Source: Pseudobutyrivibrio sp. MD2005 (GTDB taxonomy: Bacteria; Bacillota; Clostridia; Lachnospirales; Lachnospiraceae). Taken from it: a DNA stretch of 64,000 nt. Positions within the stretch are counted from its first letter, which is position 1. Every line of letters starts with the position of its first letter. The position numbers and the translations under genes were made by a program. Under the pieces are notes generated by a model. The model was not told the origin of the DNA. It worked only from the letters and a program-made list of their open reading frames with translations, and made no database searches. Location: assembly GCF_000621865.1 (NCBI RefSeq), contig NZ_JHXE01000021.1, forward strand, positions 1 through 64,000, read 5' to 3'. This document shows positions 385 through 24,671 of this stretch, in pieces.

Positions 385-896
385 ATACATGCAATTGTTT
401 CTACACAGATTTGGCTAATTGCATGTATATCAATAGTTGTCTCACCATACATGTAATCACAATAGCGCCATTTTACACTTTTGCATGTATCCTTCTTAAT
501 CTTTGATTCACACATGCAATTTCCATACATGCAACTGGCACTAGTGCATGTACCAGGCACTTTTAATGATGTAAACATGCATTTTGCTCGTGGTACGCAT
601 AGCCAATTGCATGTATCTGCTTTTTTTATGAGCATATGCATGCAATCTTATATCAAACGTCACTGCTCAGTGCATGTACATAAATATTATTATTTTTAAT
701 ACATACATTTTCTCATGTTTACCACTCACCCTTACACTTAGACTTTATTTCAGCTTCTCAATAGCTAAATCCCTCCAAAATCTATGCAGGAAATATTGCA
801 TGTAACACACTATAAAAATTCTAATACATGCAATTTCACATTAATTCATACCCTAAATTGCATGTTACCTTTCAGATTGTATTTAATGCATGCAAT
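385..896. repeat. Motif array 1: alternating TTGCATGTAT/ATACATGCAA sites, 62-63 bp period
   Basis: No credible gene lies between 221 and 1561. Sites occur at 385 (-), 418 (+), 447 (-), 480 (+), 511 (-), 525 (-), 543 (+), 573 (-), 606 (+), 636 (-), 669 (+), a degenerate one at 699 (-), then 795 (+), 824 (-), 857 (+) and 886 (-). Orientation alternates apart from the extra site at 525. Centre-to-centre steps are 28-29 bp from a plus to the next minus site and 34 bp from minus to plus. Across the poorly conserved stretch 710-794 the distance 674.5 to 800.5 is 126 bp, exactly two periods, so the phase is kept. Sequences between sites are AT-rich and unrelated. Function unknown. Confidence 0.9.
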
Positions 897-11499: not shown

Positions 11500-12168
11500 C
11501 TAATCTACCACATATCCAACATTTCTAACTGTTCTTATTCTGGCGCCATAATCGCCAAGTTTGCTTCGCAATGTCTTGATATGCATATCAAGTGTGCGGG
11601 ATTCCAATTCATAATCCATGCCCCAAATCCTATCCATTATCTGGCTTCGCTTTAGGACAATCCCTCTGTTCATAACCAAATATTTTAATAGCTCATACTC
11701 TTTATATGTAAGCTCAACCGGCTTATCTGCAATAGTTACCTGGTGCTTCATATCATCTAAAATCAATTCGTCTATACGAATTATCACTGCCTCATCTTCT
11801 AAGGTTCTGCGAAGTAGCGCCTTCACTCTCGAAATAAGCTCCATCACCGAAAATGGCTTTTTGATATAATCATCAGCTCCATTATCAAGACCTCTTACCA
11901 AATCAAGCTCGGAAGTCTTGGCAGTCACCATTATTACCGGAATATTCTTAGTAATTTCACTGGCGCGAAGCTGCCTTACAATCTCATTTCCACTCTCATC
12001 TGGAAGCATTATATCAAGCAATACCAAATCCGGAATTTTCTTTTCCAAATACTCAAAAAAGCCTGCTCCGTCAGGGAAGCTTTTAGCAGTAAATCCTGCA
12101 TTCCCAAGAGCAAACTCTTCTATTTCTCTGATGTTATCATCATCCTCAACAATATAAATTAAAGCCAT
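11500..12168 (-). CDS. OmpR/PhoB-family response regulator
   Basis: 222 residues. The receiver domain has acidic residues EDDD at 8-11, phospho-acceptor D52 in LLDIMLPDE, T82 in VTAK and a Lys in DYIKKPF at about 103. A C-terminal winged helix (Trans_reg_C) ends in RTVRNVGYVVD. AAAGGAGG lies close before ATG 12168. It lies between the Na/Pi symporter gene (15 bp) and the histidine kinase gene (16 bp), so kinase and regulator are clearly a pair. Targets are unknown, though autoregulation of this operon is common for the family. Confidence 0.92.
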   Translation of the reverse strand: MALIYIVEDDDNIREIEEFALGNAGFTAKSFPDGAGFFEYLEKKIPDLVLLDIMLPDESGNEIVRQLRASEITKNIPVIMVTAKTSELDLVRGLDNGADDYIKKPFSVMELISRVKALLRRTLEDEAVIIRIDELILDDMKHQVTIADKPVELTYKEYELLKYLVMNRGIVLKRSQIMDRIWGMDYELESRTLDMHIKTLRSKLGDYGARIRTVRNVGYVVD

Positions 12169-13224: not shown

Positions 13225-14208
13225 TCATCTAATAATCGCGTAAGCCATGGCAAGTCCGTACATTACAAGCATAATCACTCCTTCTGTCTTGTTAAGCTTA
13301 TGCTCCGTAAATGCGAATAACCATGTGATGATTGTGACAATTAATAGGATGAATAGGTCGTAAACTGATGCTACATTTACATATATTGGTGTGATAATTG
13401 CGGATACCCCTAAAATGAACAGCAGATTAAATATGTTTGATCCCAATACATTTCCTAATGCTATTCCAATCTGCCCTTTTCTTGTAGCAACCACCGAAGT
13501 TACAAGTTCTGGGAGAGATGTTCCAATGGCTACAATAGTAAGTCCTATTAGTGTCTCTGACATTCCTGCCATGAGTGCTAGAGCTTTAGCACTATTAACA
13601 ACTGTTTTGCCACCTAGGATAATCATTATCACTCCTGCTATCAGATACAGCACACACTTCTTATTAGGGATTGTTTTTACACCTTCATATTCTTCATCCT
13701 CCTTTCCTTGTGCTTTCATGAAGATGTAAATGATGTACATTACATATCCGCCTAACAGCATTGCACCACCTAGCCCTGAGATTCTTGCTACATTCTTTGT
13801 AGTAATATCTCCTATCGCCGGGATTTTTCCTACAATCGTAAATCCTGCTATTCCTACAAACAGCAGCACTGTGGAAATTGTTGTGACCGCAAAGTCCCTT
13901 TTGATTATCGTCTTTTCCACAATTATCGGCGACATCACAGCACATATGCCAAGGATTCCTAGTAAGTTGAAGGTATTTGATCCAATAATGTTACTTAATG
14001 CTATCTCACTAGAACCTTCGGCCGCTGCAGAAAGACTCACTGCAAGCTCTGGTGCACTGGTGCCACAGGCCACAATTGTCAGGCCTATTATCAACGGATT
14101 CACTCTGAAGTTTTTCGCCAAGGCGGCACTGCCATCCACAAAATAATTTGCGCCTTTTACAAGCAATGCGAAACCTACCATCAAAAATATAATTGTCATA
14201 ATCATCAT
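13225..14208 (-). CDS. Calcium/sodium antiporter (CaCA, YrbG-like)
   Basis: About 327 residues from ATG 14208. An upstream in-frame GTG at 14292 would add 28 residues with no family match and no clear ribosome site, so I chose the internal ATG. Two inverted alpha repeats are visible: GLTIVACGTSAPELAVS in the first half and GLTIVAIGTSLPELVTS in the second, each with the ion-binding Glu. Ten hydrophobic spans. It exchanges Na+ for Ca2+ or another cation. Head of the operon antiporter, Na/Pi symporter, regulator, kinase. Motif array 2 begins about 140 bp upstream. Confidence 0.85.
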   Translation of the reverse strand: MMIMTIIFLMVGFALLVKGANYFVDGSAALAKNFRVNPLIIGLTIVACGTSAPELAVSLSAAAEGSSEIALSNIIGSNTFNLLGILGICAVMSPIIVEKTIIKRDFAVTTISTVLLFVGIAGFTIVGKIPAIGDITTKNVARISGLGGAMLLGGYVMYIIYIFMKAQGKEDEEYEGVKTIPNKKCVLYLIAGVIMIILGGKTVVNSAKALALMAGMSETLIGLTIVAIGTSLPELVTSVVATRKGQIGIALGNVLGSNIFNLLFILGVSAIITPIYVNVASVYDLFILLIVTIITWLFAFTEHKLNKTEGVIMLVMYGLAMAYAIIR

Positions 14209-14348
14209 GATTTGATGATAAATGGGGAATGTAAAGAGTATGTAAAATAGATATTTATTTGAATCACACTGTTTTCTTAGAGCAAATGCCACTAATCAAT
14301 CTAGGAATCTCTTGTCGCATCCATTGCTCCGATTCTATATTCTATGAT

Positions 14349-14639
14349 TTTGCATGTATCTAATGTTTTATTATTATTTACATGCAATGTTTGCAGCTCA
14401 GATTTGCTTCTTTGCATGTATCTGAAATAAATCTATAGTATACATGCAATTTCTCCCAGACTCATTTCTATCTTTGCATGTATTGTGAATTATTTTTTTA
14501 TTGTACATGCAATACAACCACTTTTGCTTTGATATATTGCATGTATTTTTACTCTATTTATTGTGATACATGCAAAATTTAATTTCACCCTGCTTCACAT
14601 TGCATGTATGTGCACACATTATAATCATATACATGCAAT
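14349..14639. repeat. Motif array 2: ten alternating TGCATGTA-core sites, the cleanest copy
   Basis: Ten 11-bp sites whose CATG centres lie at 14354.5(+), 14382.5(-), 14416.5(+), 14444.5(-), 14478.5(+), 14507.5(-), 14541.5(+), 14570.5(-), 14604.5(+), 14633.5(-). The steps are 28, 34, 28, 34, 29, 34, 29, 34, 29. Plus sites read TTTGCATGTAT or ATTGCATGTAT, minus sites mostly ATACATGCAAT. Spacers are AT-rich and unrelated. Neighbouring plus/minus pairs could also form 10-11 bp hairpins with about 17-nt loops. It lies upstream of the antiporter operon and downstream of the DUF2238-like gene's terminator. Confidence 0.93.
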
Positions 14640-14668
14640 CAGGACTAAATAGTAGCACTGAGATAGCA

Positions 14669-14697
14669 AAAAGCCCTGCCGCACTGGCAGAGCTTTT
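14669..14697 (-). terminator. Terminator of the 16562-14713 operon
   Basis: On the minus strand AAAAGCTCTGCC pairs with GGCAGGGCTTTTT around a short GC-rich loop (CTGCC 14676-14680 with GGCAG 14686-14690, extended by AAAGC/GCTTT) and ends in TTTTTGC. It lies 16 bp past the stop of the membrane protein gene. Confidence 0.8.
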
Positions 14698-14712
14698 GTT
14701 ATCTTTTTGCTT

Positions 14713-15507
14713 TTATTTAACTGGTTTAATCATAAGGCTATCTGTGATGACCGATTTCTTAGAGAATTTCAATGTACAGTAGCCAATAATACTAAAGACT
14801 ACAGCGCCGATGAGATTGACCAGCAAATCCTTCATGGTATCGATGATTCCTATATCAAGATATCCTCCGGCCACTGTGTATGATTTGCCATCAGCAGTGT
14901 TGATTACAGTATCTGTGATATTTCCGATGAAATAAGGCAAGCCACTATTTTCCGGGTCGAGAGTAACCGAGCCAATGTTATTAACAATGAAATCCTTTTG
15001 CATATCCACAAAGAAAAGCTGATCCATTGTGAATTCAAAGAATTCCCACAGCACTCCTATTGTCATAGAAAAACAAAAGGCCACCAAAGTCAGATAAAAT
15101 GGCGACAGATTGATGTTATCGCTGCCGCGGTTGAGCAAGTATACCAGCGAAAATCCTATGGCGGCACACAAGAATCCATTCATGGTGTGAAGCATTGTAT
15201 CCCAACCGGGAATCTTTACATAATAGTGATCAACTTCGCCAAGTATTTCTGCTGCGTAGGTAAACCCAAATATGATAGCCTGAAAAAGTGCAGGAAACTC
15301 TATCTTCATTTTCTGCTGCAAAAACGCAGGCATCAAAAACAGTAGCAAGGATAAGACGCATATTGCTGCACTTTCATAATTCCTAGTTAGAATGCATCTC
15401 ACAAGAGTGAGGATAACCAAGCCACGCAGGATTAGGTAAAATATGAAAGTCCTTTTGTTCTTTTTATAGCTGTCCACCAGGGAATTCTTGTAGTCTATAA
15501 TTTTCAT
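14713..15507 (-). CDS. DUF2238/YjdF-like membrane protein
   Basis: 264 residues with about seven hydrophobic spans. PGWDTMLHTMNGFLCAAIGF at about 99-118 and the acidic span GVLWEFFEFTMDQ at about 150-162 resemble DUF2238 (YjdF-type) inner-membrane proteins of unknown function. The conserved His/Asp/Glu residues inside membrane spans hint at transport or catalysis, but nothing firmer. AGGAAGG precedes ATG 15507. It follows the PsiE-like gene by 14 bp and ends at a terminator, so it is the last gene of a three-gene operon. Confidence 0.6.
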   Translation of the reverse strand: MKIIDYKNSLVDSYKKNKRTFIFYLILRGLVILTLVRCILTRNYESAAICVLSLLLFLMPAFLQQKMKIEFPALFQAIIFGFTYAAEILGEVDHYYVKIPGWDTMLHTMNGFLCAAIGFSLVYLLNRGSDNINLSPFYLTLVAFCFSMTIGVLWEFFEFTMDQLFFVDMQKDFIVNNIGSVTLDPENSGLPYFIGNITDTVINTADGKSYTVAGGYLDIGIIDTMKDLLVNLIGAVVFSIIGYCTLKFSKKSVITDSLMIKPVK

Positions 15508-16644: not shown

Positions 16645-19584
16645 CTACAAATCAGCATCAACTAATTCTAGCAGTTCTTCAGCAGCCTTCTCATTCTCAA
16701 TCCTGATTAGATTATCCCAAACATCAGCTTTTCCAAGTAAATTCATTCCGCCGTGCCAAACAATATTTCTATCTATCACAGCAAAATGTTCATTTTCCTT
16801 TTTCTCTAATCTGACATATATTCCCGCCTGACGCATTTCATCATGCATGGCATATAAATCTATCACATCTCCATAGCCGACCTCTTCTGGCGATAAAGTT
16901 ATTACTGTTATTTCGACTCCCGCTTCTTGTCTTGCTTTCACAAGCTCAACCATCCTTTCGACTTTATCGGCTCGTAAAAGTGGGCTTGAAATCACTATTT
17001 CTTTATTAGCTTCAACTAAATCTCTCGCAAATGTTTCATAATAATCTTTATTGTCAAATATCATATTTGTCTTTTGTTTATCCGTCCTAATATCAGAAAT
17101 AATTTTGTATCCAAGTCTTTTATATGTATGCAGCCTACTTCTATATTGTCGATTAAAAAATTTTATATGAGAATCCACATAATCATAAACTATTACCTCA
17201 TTTTTCCCATCACAGGCTCTGCTAAGTCGTCCAACATATTGCGTTAATTTCCCTTCAAATTTAACCGGTGCAGCAAGCATCAGTGTATCTAATCTTGGAC
17301 AATTAAAACCTTCTCCAACCATTGAACCTGTAGCAATGACAATAACAGATTCATCTGAAGGTATTTTATCTAACTCAAGTTTAACACGATTGTTTTCTTT
17401 TGCAGATTGGTCTCCATATATCAATAATACATGTTTTGCATGACCACTTAGTGCTTTCTCTAAAATTTCCACATGTTTCTTTCTCTTTACAAGTATAAGC
17501 GTAGTTCTGCCCTCTTTTACACATAAATCAACATCGGTTACAATCTGATTAGTTCTATCTACTGACGATACAATCAACTCATCCGCTTCATGTATAGTTA
17601 AATCTTTTCCTGATATGTTTACAACTCTTGTAAATCGTGGGTATACGAATCGCTCTATTCCTTGTGCTTCAGCTTGTTCCTTTGGTGTATATTCATGTCG
17701 TATTGGCCCTAAAAGCATATAATTTATTTGTTCGAGTTTATCACTTCTCTGAGGTGTTGCAGATACGCCATATACGTATTTTGATTTTACTTTATTCAAT
17801 ACTGCTGTAGCCTGGTTAGATGCGGCATGATGACACTCATCCATTATTACCAAGCCATAGTCATTTATCCTGTCAAAGAATTGCCCCTTCTTATATGCAG
17901 ACCCAACCATTGCAATATCAATTATCCCTGTGGTCTTGTCTACACCAGATGATAATGTACCAATTACTAAGTCACGCCTTTTTTCGCGACCGGTTTTTGT
18001 GTAATATACAGGCGGTTTTTCATCCACAATTAAAAACCTGTTTAGCTCATCCACCCATTGTTGTAAAAGACTTGCGCTTTCTATAAGAATTAATGTATTT
18101 ACTTTACGTTTTGATATGATATACGCAGAAACTACCGTTTTTCCAAAAGCAGTAGCAGCACTTAGTATTCCTTCGTCATATTTTAATAAATTATCCATCG
18201 CAACCTTTTGCTCGGGTTTAAGTTGTCCATTAAAACTCACTCTGATTGGTTTACCAATCTGACGATTGTCTTCGATATCATATTCAATTCCTGCCTGCTT
18301 GCATTTATCAATAATTTTATCTTTTAATCCACGAGGAACTCTAATAAATCCATTTTCATCTTTTCCTAAATATATAGTTCTAAAGTTGTAATAATTAGAA
18401 TGACCAAGACGCTTGTTTTTATAGAATTCTGGATTATCTATAGTAGCCAATCTTCTGATACAATTCGCTAAACGTGGCATTATGTTTAAAGTATCAACAT
18501 ATATGCCATCTTCTTGAACCATATGTAATGTACCACCAACAACATCCGCTTTGATTAATCTATCTTCTTGCTGCCATGGTTTTAGTTCGCCCCTCCTCAA
18601 TATTACTTTATTGATTAGCGATGTACCCAACCATTCTTGTAGATATTTTTCAATCTCAGATTTCGATATTTTTCTTGCGCTTAACAAGGCTTGCCACTGA
18701 TCACTATATGCATTCCAATTCTCATCAACAAATGCACTATTGCCATCCTTCAATGCTTGTCCTTGCAACGGCAGAGCTACAAGATTCCCTAGTTTACTCA
18801 ATACATCTTGCGAAGGATACATTCTATCGTAAAATTTAAAAGATGTAAGATTAACCTCTGATGCCCCTTTTTCCAATAATGCAAATCCAAAATTTCGGGC
18901 TAGACTTGCCGGAACTTGCTCATTGAATAATATCCATACATGGGCACCTCTACCAGACCTAGAACGCTCCACCAGGGCATCAATACCGCATTGTTTACAT
19001 ATTTCTCGAAGTGAATCGACTTCTGTCTTCCATTCCTCATTAGTATTCGCATCATCATTTTTATAAGAGTCCTTTGCATGATTATCAAAGTCAAACACTA
19101 AAAAACGACACACATCCCCCGGTAATAAAGGATATGCGCCGATAACGTCTGTACAATCTTCTCTTTTTCCAATTAAGTGATTTAATATGATATTTGCATT
19201 AAGCCTCTCCCATCTTTTACCAGGACAATCTTCGTCACAAAATACCTTCTCTCCTGCAGCCTTCGGACAAACAGCTGCATCCCATCTATTCTTACACTGA
19301 GGAAAATATCCACCATTCTTCCCTCTTCTGGCATAAACATCCTCACGTCCCCAAAATCTACCATAGAATTCTTTCGCCATTTGCAAAGTAGGATTCATTG
19401 GTATGATTCTTGCGCCTTGATCCTCGTCATATTCGTCAGATACATCGTTCGTTGAAATTGTTATGTTATCAGTGATTTCAATGTTATTTGAATGCAAAAG
19501 AGCCTTAAGCTCTTTATTCTCGCGCTGCAAATTTCTTATTATTCTGCGTAATGTATCTAGGGTATGGCTTGATGGGTTAAACAT
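16645..19584 (-). CDS. TOTE-type primase + SF2 helicase + PLD-like protein
   Basis: 979 residues. A short coiled coil (about 10-32) precedes a Cys cluster (C97, C106, C116, C120). Next is an archaeo-eukaryotic-primase-like domain with D165/D167 in FLVFDFD and H215 in GRGAHVW, then LVALPLQGQ. An SF2 helicase follows: AATAFGKT at about 476-483, DECH at 582-585, SATP at 608-611 and QYVGRLSRA later. The C-terminal 140 residues are PLD-like, but the HKD motif reads HFAVID, lacking the lysine, so nuclease activity is doubtful. Domain order matches proteins annotated as TOTE conflict-system primases, thought to act in defence or DNA conflict. That role is inferred. Confidence 0.82.
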   Translation of the reverse strand: MFNPSSHTLDTLRRIIRNLQRENKELKALLHSNNIEITDNITISTNDVSDEYDEDQGARIIPMNPTLQMAKEFYGRFWGREDVYARRGKNGGYFPQCKNRWDAAVCPKAAGEKVFCDEDCPGKRWERLNANIILNHLIGKREDCTDVIGAYPLLPGDVCRFLVFDFDNHAKDSYKNDDANTNEEWKTEVDSLREICKQCGIDALVERSRSGRGAHVWILFNEQVPASLARNFGFALLEKGASEVNLTSFKFYDRMYPSQDVLSKLGNLVALPLQGQALKDGNSAFVDENWNAYSDQWQALLSARKISKSEIEKYLQEWLGTSLINKVILRRGELKPWQQEDRLIKADVVGGTLHMVQEDGIYVDTLNIMPRLANCIRRLATIDNPEFYKNKRLGHSNYYNFRTIYLGKDENGFIRVPRGLKDKIIDKCKQAGIEYDIEDNRQIGKPIRVSFNGQLKPEQKVAMDNLLKYDEGILSAATAFGKTVVSAYIISKRKVNTLILIESASLLQQWVDELNRFLIVDEKPPVYYTKTGREKRRDLVIGTLSSGVDKTTGIIDIAMVGSAYKKGQFFDRINDYGLVIMDECHHAASNQATAVLNKVKSKYVYGVSATPQRSDKLEQINYMLLGPIRHEYTPKEQAEAQGIERFVYPRFTRVVNISGKDLTIHEADELIVSSVDRTNQIVTDVDLCVKEGRTTLILVKRKKHVEILEKALSGHAKHVLLIYGDQSAKENNRVKLELDKIPSDESVIVIATGSMVGEGFNCPRLDTLMLAAPVKFEGKLTQYVGRLSRACDGKNEVIVYDYVDSHIKFFNRQYRSRLHTYKRLGYKIISDIRTDKQKTNMIFDNKDYYETFARDLVEANKEIVISSPLLRADKVERMVELVKARQEAGVEITVITLSPEEVGYGDVIDLYAMHDEMRQAGIYVRLEKKENEHFAVIDRNIVWHGGMNLLGKADVWDNLIRIENEKAAEELLELVDADL

Positions 19585-19657: not shown

Positions 19658-20692
19658 CTATCTTTGTTTTTCAATAAAGTTGGAAAATCTTGGTAAGAGT
19701 AAGCTAATGTAACCATATTTTGAAGTATCTATAAGGCCTTTTTTATCTAATCTATCACGATATGTAGAAAACAAACTTGATGACATATCTATTTTTTCTC
19801 TCAAGTCTTTAATTTTCATTTCTTCTTTTCCCTCTAAGCCAAGCAATACATTTCGATCCGTTTCAGATAGCCCTGACCATATTTTCTGATAAACATACTC
19901 TTCTAAATATTGTTCATATTCAGGCATTACCTGTTTTAGTGATTTCTCAGGATTTTTCCATTTAACATACCCTAAAACTTGATAAGCAAATGCATATCCT
20001 TTTGTCTCATCCGCCATTTCCTTTGCATATTTATTGTCAATTTTGAAAATCGTTTTATAGCTTTCGACAATTGCTCCCGTATTCAACGGTGAAATATGAA
20101 TCTTTGGAGCACGATATAAAAATGTTAATGATTTCTCATTCTGCAACTGATATATATTTTCATATAGTCCAGTCATTAAAATGTATATTTCTAATTCTTT
20201 TCTAATGTATATCTGAAAAGAGTGAGCTAGAATTCGCATTGATTTATTGTTCGTAACTTCATCCAATAAAACTAGCACTTTTTTACCTTCCTTTTTCAGA
20301 AGATCAAGCATAGTTTCAATAGCCGTATCTATGCTTGTAAATTGCTGACCGCCTTCAACACTAATACCTAATCCAAAGAATGATAAATCAATCTTTGCTT
20401 TTGTAAAAATCAAATGATTTTCCGGTAAATTATATAACTTAGCTGCTAATTGCTCTAGCAGATCAAGTTCTGGATTAAGCTCAATAATTATCCACTTTTT
20501 ATTCTCCGATAACTGTTTTGCAATACTAGTCATTAATACTGTCTTACCAGCACCTCTTACTCCTGTAATCATGTACATCATACAATTAGCTGGTTCAGCA
20601 GTAAAATTTTCCACTACTTCATTAGTCTGCTCAAGTCGCGAAATATATGTTAATGGTTGTTTTCCGAAAGATAATGTAAATGGATTGCTCAT
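19658..20692 (-). CDS. AAA/STAND-like ATPase with C-terminal winged helix
   Basis: 344 residues. Walker A GVRGAGKT at 44-51, Walker B KVLVLLDEV at about 137-145, and a sensor-like MTGLYEN at about 174. The C-terminal part (about 285-340) reads as a winged helix with DLREKIDMSSSLFSTYRDRL then KGLIDTSKYG. Similar ATPases are common next to mobile or defence genes; the function is unknown. GAGGG lies upstream of ATG 20692. It ends 74 bp before the primase-helicase gene, same strand, so the two may be co-transcribed. Five phased TCTATAACT repeats lie directly upstream and may be its operator. Confidence 0.75.
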   Translation of the reverse strand: MSNPFTLSFGKQPLTYISRLEQTNEVVENFTAEPANCMMYMITGVRGAGKTVLMTSIAKQLSENKKWIIIELNPELDLLEQLAAKLYNLPENHLIFTKAKIDLSFFGLGISVEGGQQFTSIDTAIETMLDLLKKEGKKVLVLLDEVTNNKSMRILAHSFQIYIRKELEIYILMTGLYENIYQLQNEKSLTFLYRAPKIHISPLNTGAIVESYKTIFKIDNKYAKEMADETKGYAFAYQVLGYVKWKNPEKSLKQVMPEYEQYLEEYVYQKIWSGLSETDRNVLLGLEGKEEMKIKDLREKIDMSSSLFSTYRDRLDKKGLIDTSKYGYISLLLPRFSNFIEKQR

Positions 20693-20701
20693 TATGTTCC
20701 C

Positions 20702-20770
20702 TCTATAACTTTCAATTTCTTCTATAACTCTCTATAACTTTTTCTTTATTCTATAACTTTCTATAACTTT
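20702..20770. promoter_or_regulatory. Five phased TCTATAACT repeats upstream of the ATPase gene
   Basis: Direct copies of TCTATAACT begin at 20702, 20721, 20731, 20750 and 20760. The intervals are 19, 10, 19 and 10 bp, that is near-integral helix turns in a repeating two-step pattern. They lie between the ATPase ribosome site and its likely promoter. This looks like an operator for a cooperatively binding protein, possibly the winged-helix ATPase itself. CTATAG-type sequences also occur at about 20851-20863. Confidence 0.65.
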
Positions 20771-20934
20771 AGTCAAATATGCCTGTAACAGCTAGAACTA
20801 TAATAATAAATCACTTTGTATTCACATACGAGGAAACCTATAGAACTATAGAAATAGAGATTTTTTTACTTAATATTAGACAGGTGATATATTTTGAGGC
20901 AATAAGAACACTTTTGAGAATTATAAAATTTCTC

Positions 20935-21161
20935 ATTGCATGTATCTTTATATAAATCATTTAATCCATGCAACCCACTTCAGACTAATCTATGTAATTG
21001 CATGTTTTAAGTATACACTGCGCTAAAACATGTAATATCAATGATAAATCAGAGCACAATTGCATGTATGTTTGTGAGATACATTTGATACATGCAAAAA
21101 AACAAAATCCTTTCTTTGAAATTACATGTATCTCAAAGAAAAAGCCTGCCATACGTGCAAT
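20935..21161. repeat. Motif array 3: eight alternating, partly degenerate sites
   Basis: Centres at 20940.5(+), 20968.5(-), 21002.5(+), 21030.5(-), 21064.5(+), 21092.5(-), 21126.5(+) and 21155.5(-). Steps are 28, 34, 28, 34, 28, 34, 29, the same geometry as arrays 1 and 2. Several sites are degenerate (CCATGCAA, ACATGTAA, ACGTGCAA), yet spacing is preserved to the base. It lies between the 3' end of the 165-residue protein gene and the region upstream of the ATPase gene. Confidence 0.9.
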
Positions 21162-23072: not shown

Positions 23073-24671
23073 CTAATTATCTACAATAACAGAATCTATG
23101 CATCGTTTATCCTTATCTGTTGAAAAATTCAGACCTACCTTTATGATTTTGTAGCCCGCAAGTGTCTTATCATAATATTTCTGATCGTACTTTTTATCAT
23201 TAATTTGAGCCATCGCTTCTTCAGCGGTCTTATCAATTTTACACTCTATGACATATATATTTTTACCAGCTTCTAATACTGCATCTATCCTTCCAGTATT
23301 TGTCATACTTTCAGCATCAAGTACCATACCGCACATCTTAAATGTCAAATACATTAATGACTGATAGTATTTTTCATATTTTAATTGAATAGCATATGGT
23401 ATACTTGCAAAAAGTCCATTTAAAACTTTTATCATCTTATCAACATCACCATCATAGGCTGCATTTTGAATATTAGATGCTATAGAGTTTATTTCTACTA
23501 TAGACTTATCTAAATACACAGATGCCAAATCTGTTTCAAAAGACATTTGTACTTCTTTGTTAGGATACACCAATTTGTATGTAGGCATATTACTACGCTC
23601 ATCTCTATCACCAATGGTTAGGTATCCTGTTTGAAACAACAATTGTGTTATCGTTTGCACATCCACACTATTCTCACTAAGCGCCATTAAATCAAAAGAG
23701 TTGAATGATATGTCTGTAACCAACGCATTTTGTATACTCTCAAGAGTAATTTTCTGTTTTCTAGCGTAGTTTACTAGCATTACTGGTGTTGCTGTTCCAT
23801 ACCAATAATTTCCAAAAGTATAGTTTTCTGTGAAGAAGCGTCCAACAGACACTGGATTGTATACTTTTACACCGTCAAAAGTAAATTTAAATCCATCATA
23901 CCAAGAGGCCAATTCTTCAATCATTTCATCAATAGAATAGCTATTCTTTTCCGCAGCTGCAATAATATATTCATTAAAATTATATCTTAACTCATCTTCA
24001 TTATATCCAACTGCATCAGAATATTTTTCGCTTCTAGAGATGTCTATTAGGTTGTTTAATTTACTAAAAATGGATACCTGACTAGCTTTAGTGATTCCCG
24101 TGATAAAAACAAAGCGTTCCATGGATTCGTATCCTTTTATCATCTGATAAAAAGCTTCCATAGTTCTGCTAATAAGTTTTACACCTTTTCCATCTTCCAA
24201 ATTATTTGTGATAGGCCTGTCATATTCATCCACAAGTATAACAACACCTTTTGAATACTTGTTATACAATGCCTTTATTAATTCACCAAACATTATTGCT
24301 GGTGAGCTACCTGCAATTTCTACATCATAGCTCTTAGCGATTCCAGTCATTTCAAGCTTGAGCCACTCTTCCAGATTTGCGACAGTTGAACTATCACTTC
24401 GTCCGAAATCTATATGTATTACTGGATATTCCTCCCAAGAATAGTCTTTATCACTGATATACAACTCCTTAAATAACTCTTTTTCAGCCTTAAATACTGC
24501 CTCTAGAGTACTCACTGTCAAACTTTTCCCAAAGCGACGTGGGCGCGAAAAGAAAAATTGTCCAAATGGCTCTTTCACCATCTCGTATATATATTTAGTT
24601 TTATCCACATATAAATAATCTGATTCAATAATATTCTTGAATGTAGATATTGATGTGCTTATTCTTTTCAT
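23073..24671 (-). CDS. AAA-ATPase-like / PD-(D/E)XK nuclease protein (DUF1703 type)
   Basis: 532 residues. The N-terminal AAA-ATPase-like domain has the family Walker-A variant SRPRRFGKSLT at about 42-52, then a LVDEYDRP Walker-B-like motif near 145. The C-terminal domain has the PD-(D/E)XK pattern: D463 in GRIDAVLEAG and E477/K479 in VIECKID. Very common in multiple copies in Bacteroidetes and Lachnospiraceae; the physiological role is not established, with defence or mobile-DNA functions suggested. ATG 24671 has GAGGAA 12 bases upstream. A copy of the 36-bp repeat lies 86 bp upstream, in its probable promoter region. Confidence 0.85.
   Translation of the reverse strand: MKRISTSISTFKNIIESDYLYVDKTKYIYEMVKEPFGQFFFSRPRRFGKSLTVSTLEAVFKAEKELFKELYISDKDYSWEEYPVIHIDFGRSDSSTVANLEEWLKLEMTGIAKSYDVEIAGSSPAIMFGELIKALYNKYSKGVVILVDEYDRPITNNLEDGKGVKLISRTMEAFYQMIKGYESMERFVFITGITKASQVSIFSKLNNLIDISRSEKYSDAVGYNEDELRYNFNEYIIAAAEKNSYSIDEMIEELASWYDGFKFTFDGVKVYNPVSVGRFFTENYTFGNYWYGTATPVMLVNYARKQKITLESIQNALVTDISFNSFDLMALSENSVDVQTITQLLFQTGYLTIGDRDERSNMPTYKLVYPNKEVQMSFETDLASVYLDKSIVEINSIASNIQNAAYDGDVDKMIKVLNGLFASIPYAIQLKYEKYYQSLMYLTFKMCGMVLDAESMTNTGRIDAVLEAGKNIYVIECKIDKTAEEAMAQINDKKYDQKYYDKTLAGYKIIKVGLNFSTDKDKRCIDSVIVDN

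Follow-up and report, generated by a model that had tools for sequence, protein, structure and literature searches.

Alternating arrays of short inverted sites at regular spacing in Pseudobutyrivibrio sp. MD2005 and other Lachnospiraceae

We describe an array of ten 10-bp sites that alternate in orientation and are arranged as five inverted-repeat units with a period of 62-63 bp (array 2, 14350..14638, no strand assigned). It lies between two genes of Pseudobutyrivibrio sp. MD2005, in a window that comprises the first 64,000 nucleotides of contig NZ_JHXE01000021.1 and to which all coordinates without a further label refer. The same layout recurs in other genomes of the family with other site words. 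We consider it somewhat probable that array 2 is a set of helically phased sites for a putative sequence-specific protein that binds double-stranded DNA. Such binding fits the sharing of a word without sharing of the spacers between pairs, the conserved cores, the lack of overall covariation between arms and the succession of units at whole helical turns.

Throughout the text, X denotes the arm spacing inside an inverted pair (the loop between the arms) and Y the step or spacer between successive pairs. The window's own genome is G000; other G numbers denote genomes, L numbers loci or stretches, and C a contig.

Array 2 and its sister arrays

The sites of array 2 start at 14350, 14378, 14412, 14440, 14474, 14503, 14537, 14566, 14600 and 14629, in orientations alternating between + and -, and the steps are 28/34/28/34/29/34/29/34/29. 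Eight of the ten sites are exact copies of TTGCATGTAT and the other two are one base off. The number of sites, their alternation and the steps given in the sequence-only reading of this DNA are confirmed. The 420-bp gap between the flanking ORFs contains 10 core sites, whereas 5000 dinucleotide shuffles of it average 0.125 and never exceed 3. Over the whole window, the core TGCATGTA is present in 25 copies, as against 3.7 (at most 8) for 100 shuffles. Likeness is undetectable among the four Y spacers of array 2 (p=0.31) and marginal among its five X loops (p=0.03).

The flanking genes are both on the minus strand. One encodes a sodium/calcium exchanger (PF01699 in Pfam, 13225..14292) and the other has no Pfam match (14713..15507). 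Of the 29 genus genomes, G002 and G028 are the relatives that show both flanks side by side, separated by 47 and 32 nt, where 475 nt are found here (14247..14721, no strand assigned), containing array 2 and a terminator-like hairpin (14676-14690). The array 2 stretch was therefore either acquired by this genome or lost by those relatives.

Four arrays of this site are present in the own genome (3.09 Mb, 26 contigs). Array 1 (385..895, no strand assigned) has the same site and register as array 2 and has undergone partial erosion: two expected sites, near 733 and 762, are missing and the register is kept, the distance from 699 to 796 being 34+29+34. Array 3 (20936..21160, no strand assigned) consists of eight sites with steps of 28/34/28/34/28/34/29, and a fourth array (G000:C6:145538-145763) repeats the site in the same register. 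Across these four arrays, Y spacers are alike neither within (p=0.36) nor between arrays (p=0.33); X loops are slightly alike within arrays when pooled (44.0% versus 40.7% expected, p=0.008) and hardly alike between them (p=0.08). Outside arrays the core occurs at background level, 19 sites in 400 kb with 2 of them non-coding, as expected given the 10-12% of non-coding DNA in that sequence.

Recurrence of the layout and quantised unit periods

The exact paired site is absent from the other 28 genus members searched; outside the genus, G052 and G095 contain one lone pair each. A search of 84,980 species genomes, which possibly skips the own genome, for the exact 21-base pattern matched one other genome, G099, a Lachnospiraceae MAG from roe deer. 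Its word is GAGCATGTAA, present in four arrays whose steps are 29 and 33-34 except for a single 28 and a single 24. At E<=0.01, a covariance model built from G000 and G099 matched 10 of the 397 family genomes searched. On inspection of these matches, clear arrays were seen in G409, G241, G273, G367 and G302, apart from the own genome, and no array was seen in G052, G122 (its locus L144 included), G148 and G150. A second covariance model, from seven genomes, matched 5 of 391 genomes of the class at E<=0.001, all of them in the own family, and 16 of 79 genomes in the genus of G273 at E<=0.01. Twelve of these 16 were new, and when their loci were viewed, those of G897 and G900 proved single or eroded and those of G850 and G874 unusual. 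About ten arrays are carried by G273. Both covariance models derive from GCATG-type and GCATATA arrays and therefore miss arrays of other words.

Across the family genomes, the layout is found with the words GAGCATGTAA, AAGCATGTTR, GGCATGYC, GGCATATAGA and GGACACGCAA, and 14 or more sites can stand in one register. Words vary between genomes and also between arrays inside one genome (G832, G870), a variety that a single protein of one specificity cannot account for. Because some arrays use asymmetric words, the near-palindromic CATG core noted earlier does not extend to the class as a general feature.

Steps between exact cores were collected from 33 array stretches in 10 genomes (n=237). They fall at 28-31 (111 steps), 32-34 (71) and 22-25 (27), with none at 26, 27 or 35-41. 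Of the remaining 28, four are below 22 and come from extra cores within a Y spacer. Steps of 42, 45, 52 and 54 occur once each, the range 61-66 is represented by sixteen steps and 96-126 by four, and the long ones are mostly sums across an inexact site. Y of 23-25 is found in both stretches of G302 and in two of the four of G832 (L210, L213), L200 of G832 having 33-34. An exception is L205, with X of 22 and Y of 32. Its geometry counts against the reading as phased protein sites; near-identical units follow one another at this locus, which means that its steps are not independent of each other. A phase test on hand-entered Y steps alone gave two main modes, and the period is therefore not resolved by this test.

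Unit periods were obtained by a motif-blind scan for two consecutive inverted-repeat units with 8-bp arms of any word. In 380 kb of G832, with at most 2 mismatches, 12 clusters (some of them coding-like) were found versus none in three dinucleotide shuffles; this shuffle control applies to the G832 scan only. A looser scan covered 400 kb each of G000, G839 and G273, plus the window. Motif-blind scanning revealed new families in G000, namely AGTATCACT (two loci of four units), AAGGTATAACC (four units), ACGCTGTTT and ACTACATA. The looser scan yielded 41 non-coding clusters, the non-coding mask having removed some G832 arrays found in the earlier scan of that genome. X lies at 24-36, a range set after seeing the data, in 28 clusters and elsewhere in 13. 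Twenty-three of the 28 have periods in the bins 52-54 (8), 62-64 (6) and 72-75 (9), the other five having periods of 41, 49, 84, 84 and 96. Only one of the 13 falls into a bin (period 73), which makes 24 of 41 overall, a proportion that speaks against the phased-site reading. When GCATG-like words are left out, 14 of 19 periods are in the bins.

The circular resultant of the 28 cluster periods is 0.79 at 10.5-10.7 bp, and that of 21 per-family values, chosen by the author, is 0.80 at 10.8 bp; in both cases, none of 5000 uniform simulations reaches the value. The input was entered by hand, and one cluster of period 106 was taken as 53, a period seen for the same cluster in other scans. Within the post hoc X range, unit periods are quantised at 5, 6 or 7 helical turns. 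The same spacing thus returns with other words in other genomes, quantised by about one turn, which supports the selection on spacing claimed in the sequence-only reading and argues for its proposal that a protein would be bound on one DNA face. For comparison, 150 kb of E. coli contained three clusters in the motif-blind scan: one of period 63 (X 19), which tells against the phased-site reading, and two of periods 91-92 (X 18-24), which we take to be REPs. The two clusters in 100 kb of Butyrivibrio proteoclasticus plasmids have periods of 102 and 69, outside the bins.

Regular spacing might also be left behind by simple tandem duplication of a unit and its later decay, the spacing itself being unselected. 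Near-identical tandem units are indeed present in some arrays elsewhere (L205, L140, L157, L145), and arrays gain or lose whole units, as L142 and L202, from two species, differ by one 63-bp unit between well-aligned flanks. Together with the slight likeness of X loops in G000, these cases indicate that duplication plays a part, and the earlier exclusion of recent tandem duplication has to be given up to that extent. As an account of the whole layout, duplication is nevertheless very improbable: unrelated families share the same quantised period values, sites outlast Y spacers, and single Y steps inside arrays otherwise at 32-34 (L121, L160, L155) are one turn off their own array (23-24 for 33-34).

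Pairing of arms and conservation of cores

Inverted sites in a row may instead act as serial hairpins in RNA or single-stranded DNA, with arms pairing across a loop of 17-21 nt and with selection on structure, not on sequence. Relative to shuffles, the predicted fold of array 2 is much more stable on either strand (z -8.4 and -6.8), which would necessarily hold for every inverted array. In the + strand prediction, three of the five neighbouring X pairs form, along with two long-range pairs; on the - strand, there are two neighbouring pairs only, these span Y spacers, and the rest is long-range. Some arrays elsewhere are terminator-like (G409, L205), and arms stay complementary though the word changes between families. 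The last point agrees with hairpins; comparison of genomes shows the entire word replaced on both arms, and as any inverted word would show this, such a comparison does not discriminate.

Covariation of partner arms, expected if hairpins are selected, was assessed by within-array permutation on the 6-bp core in 28 array stretches; these include three G273 arrays with their G637 orthologues and omit L140, L150, L153, L157, L205 and the first part of L145. No overall covariation was found either across X (n=105, p=0.77) or across Y (n=88, p=0.46), nor was there any overall in the flanks. As sites are chained by fixed allowed steps, this test provides no evidence on spacing. Two contrary values favour hairpins weakly and count against the phased-site reading: p=0.04 for the X core in an earlier test of G000 and G099 together, and p=0.006 for the inner 8 X positions in G000, one of 24 X tests.

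Three arrays have been inherited vertically in G273 and G637, with their cores conserved. Between these orthologous arrays, CATG columns changed in 1 of 72 cases versus 59 of 458 elsewhere (p=0.002), and the sole CATG change affects an L142 core that is out of register. With 4 of 36 changed, the R and Y columns next to CATG are similar to other columns. Taken together, the missing arm covariation and the low change of CATG favour sequence-specific binding to double-stranded DNA over RNA hairpins. Periods quantised by helical turns are unneeded by RNA, and the same word is kept in distant arrays of one genome. We therefore regard selected hairpins as improbable. The row of hairpins kept by pairing, one of the two models offered earlier, is not borne out, the predicted fold being no simple row and partner arms lacking overall covariation. 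A scan of the window with Rfam 15 gave no match above gathering score.

Neighbouring genes, known systems and proposed role

Next, we consider the genes around the arrays. For 18 of 22 arrays both neighbours were called, and their arrangement is tandem in 13, convergent in 4 and divergent in 1; L192, counted as tandem, becomes divergent if the ORF overlapping its end is taken as the neighbour. The neighbours are unrelated and include ribosomal protein L17, adenylosuccinate synthetase, glycosidases, glyoxalase-like proteins, transporters and others. All-against-all blastp at E 1e-6 of 387 ORFs from 21 stretches in 9 genomes, a comparison that would miss small diverged proteins, identified no neighbour family common to all nine and no binding protein. 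The widest family, which includes an ABC transporter (L191:7680-9422), extends to five of the nine genomes, and the next-widest, which includes a response regulator (11500-12168), to four. Location between unrelated genes suggests that the arrays serve for structure or addressing and do not control a single pathway.

It is unlikely, in our estimate, that the arrays are multi-copy operators of ordinary transcription regulators with one word for one regulon. Their sites are sequence-conserved and array-specific, as operators would be, and ORFs are near: the distance is 58 bp between array 2 and the mechanical start of the exchanger ORF, and 244 bp between array 3 and an ATPase ORF downstream of it. 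Contrary to this idea, the scanned neighbours are unrelated, four arrays sit between convergent gene ends, and lone sites outside arrays do not exceed background.

Two neighbouring genes were followed as candidates for a link. A TOTE conflict-system protein with AEP primase, helicase and PLD-like domains (16645-19584) is encoded between arrays 2 and 3, and 10 of 29 genus genomes have its gene. In nine relatives with TOTE, no alternating array of five exact 8-mers was found in the 6-17 kb around the gene, a search that eroded arrays would escape, and this link was rejected; the sole exception in these neighbourhoods is L058, with three copies of a 39-bp palindromic repeat. AAA/STAND-type ATPase genes lie directly downstream of three arrays (at 19658 in the window, 346416 in G839 and 124066 in G273). 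Eight such genes were viewed, and since four are without an upstream inverted repeat and one has single ones only, the link was not sustained, and we retain it as a weak lead.

Direct repeats of another kind, AAAGTTATAGA (spacings 10 and 19), occupy 20670-20780, just upstream of the STAND-type ATPase ORF (19658-20692). They recur with the same spacing at 10145 of L055 in G028, near the TOTE gene of that genome; no GCATG array was found in L055. A related ATPase in G000 (C2 78272-79381) has other upstream direct repeats, TATAAAAGGTTG. Further along the window, 23073-24671 encodes an AAA-ATPase-like protein with a PDDEXK_9 nuclease domain (PF09820, PF08011).

Among known systems, BIMEs and REPs resemble the arrays in their short palindromic units, alternating orientation, intergenic position and several families per genome, and spacers of REP dimers can differ in sequence, according to PMC3733652. 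The arrays are dispersed between genes and alternate in orientation in the same way. They might accordingly be selfish extragenic palindromes, spread by a transposase and devoid of host function, a reading compatible with a bound protein and in keeping with the absence of array 2 from two relatives. We judge it unlikely, while giving it some weight. The Y1 (RAYT) transposase PF01797 was found in neither of the two carriers searched (G000, G099), the control being positive in 5 of 14 genomes. No GTAG/CGTC tag at the palindrome foot appeared in column counts over 44 G000 sites, some of them eroded, and the 12 bp to either side of each; GTAG is present inside some G099 sites, GAGCATGTAG. Moreover, Y spacers are unrelated, three arrays are inherited vertically with conserved cores in G273 and G637, and the sites measure 10 bp as opposed to palindromes of 20-40 bp. 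With 14 or more sites per register and periods at 5-7 turns, the arrays also differ from the E. coli clusters that we presume to be REPs.

Two other repeat types were seen in passing. REP-like palindromes AATGAGCC...CCGTCCCTAGGGCTCATT occur in several copies in L142 (1600-1850) and in G273 C18 near 74415, 82521 and 93724 (L298, L299), in a genome also carrying phased arrays. Short-loop hairpin families, GAAGTACATCCATGTACTTC and GATTTATC...GATAAATC, with periods of 40, 58-59 and 97, are found in L287/L293 (G839 C1 near 250232, 259655 and 364731).

Tn7-like transposon ends are likewise intergenic arrays of inverted protein-binding sites; according to PMC8649781, transposase sites of about 20 bp, in Tn7 three at one end and four at the other, delimit a single element on its two sides. 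The present arrays differ from these ends by strict alternation and by their number, about ten in a genome such as G273. Binding sites at regular helical spacing are also known from SopC-like centromere arrays and Lrp-type phased sites, from which the present class is set apart by many dispersed arrays with different words. Array 2 shares with CRISPR a regular repeat/spacer layout and a near-constant period, but has alternating 10-bp sites instead of identical direct repeats. No cas genes are among the 19 proteins scanned at 1562-24671, and blastn of array 2 against phages and plasmids gave nothing beyond chance (best E 0.08 and 0.9). A phage origin was rejected, as the exact pattern had 0 matches in viral contigs and a looser one 16 chance matches, none an array. 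Within the scope searched, the earlier statement that this is not a CRISPR stands, and so does the one that no such family has been described, no account of such arrays having been found in the open-licence PubMed Central literature.

In the preferred reading of helically phased protein sites, the unit is an inverted pair of about 10-bp sites, with centres 28-31 bp apart in nearly all arrays. Units follow each other at 5, 6 or 7 whole helical turns, so that all sites of one orientation come to lie on one face of the DNA, where the putative protein would sit. Several words per genome need several specificities, and a cell with several families may accordingly employ a set of related proteins that share an architecture, or a single scaffold that takes on more than one specificity. 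The role could be bridging, wrapping or marking DNA, possibly on a spreading element.

A bolder proposal, which we put forward tentatively and regard as rather doubtful, is that these arrays represent a new class of chromosomal nucleoprotein array. A diversified DNA-binding family of one architecture, each member with its own word, would occupy helix-locked inverted pairs and thereby address or bridge intergenic places; words would change fast even between congeners while the geometry stays fixed.

If true, these bacteria would possess many sequence-coded nucleoprotein sites that are unnamed within the literature searched. The geometry rule, which leaves the word free and sets the sites of an inverted pair about 29 bp apart and the units at intervals of 5, 6 or 7 turns, offers a motif-blind search for any genome, and the array could be used as bait for its protein. 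The arrays would then provide a clear case of conserved spacing with drifting sequence specificity.
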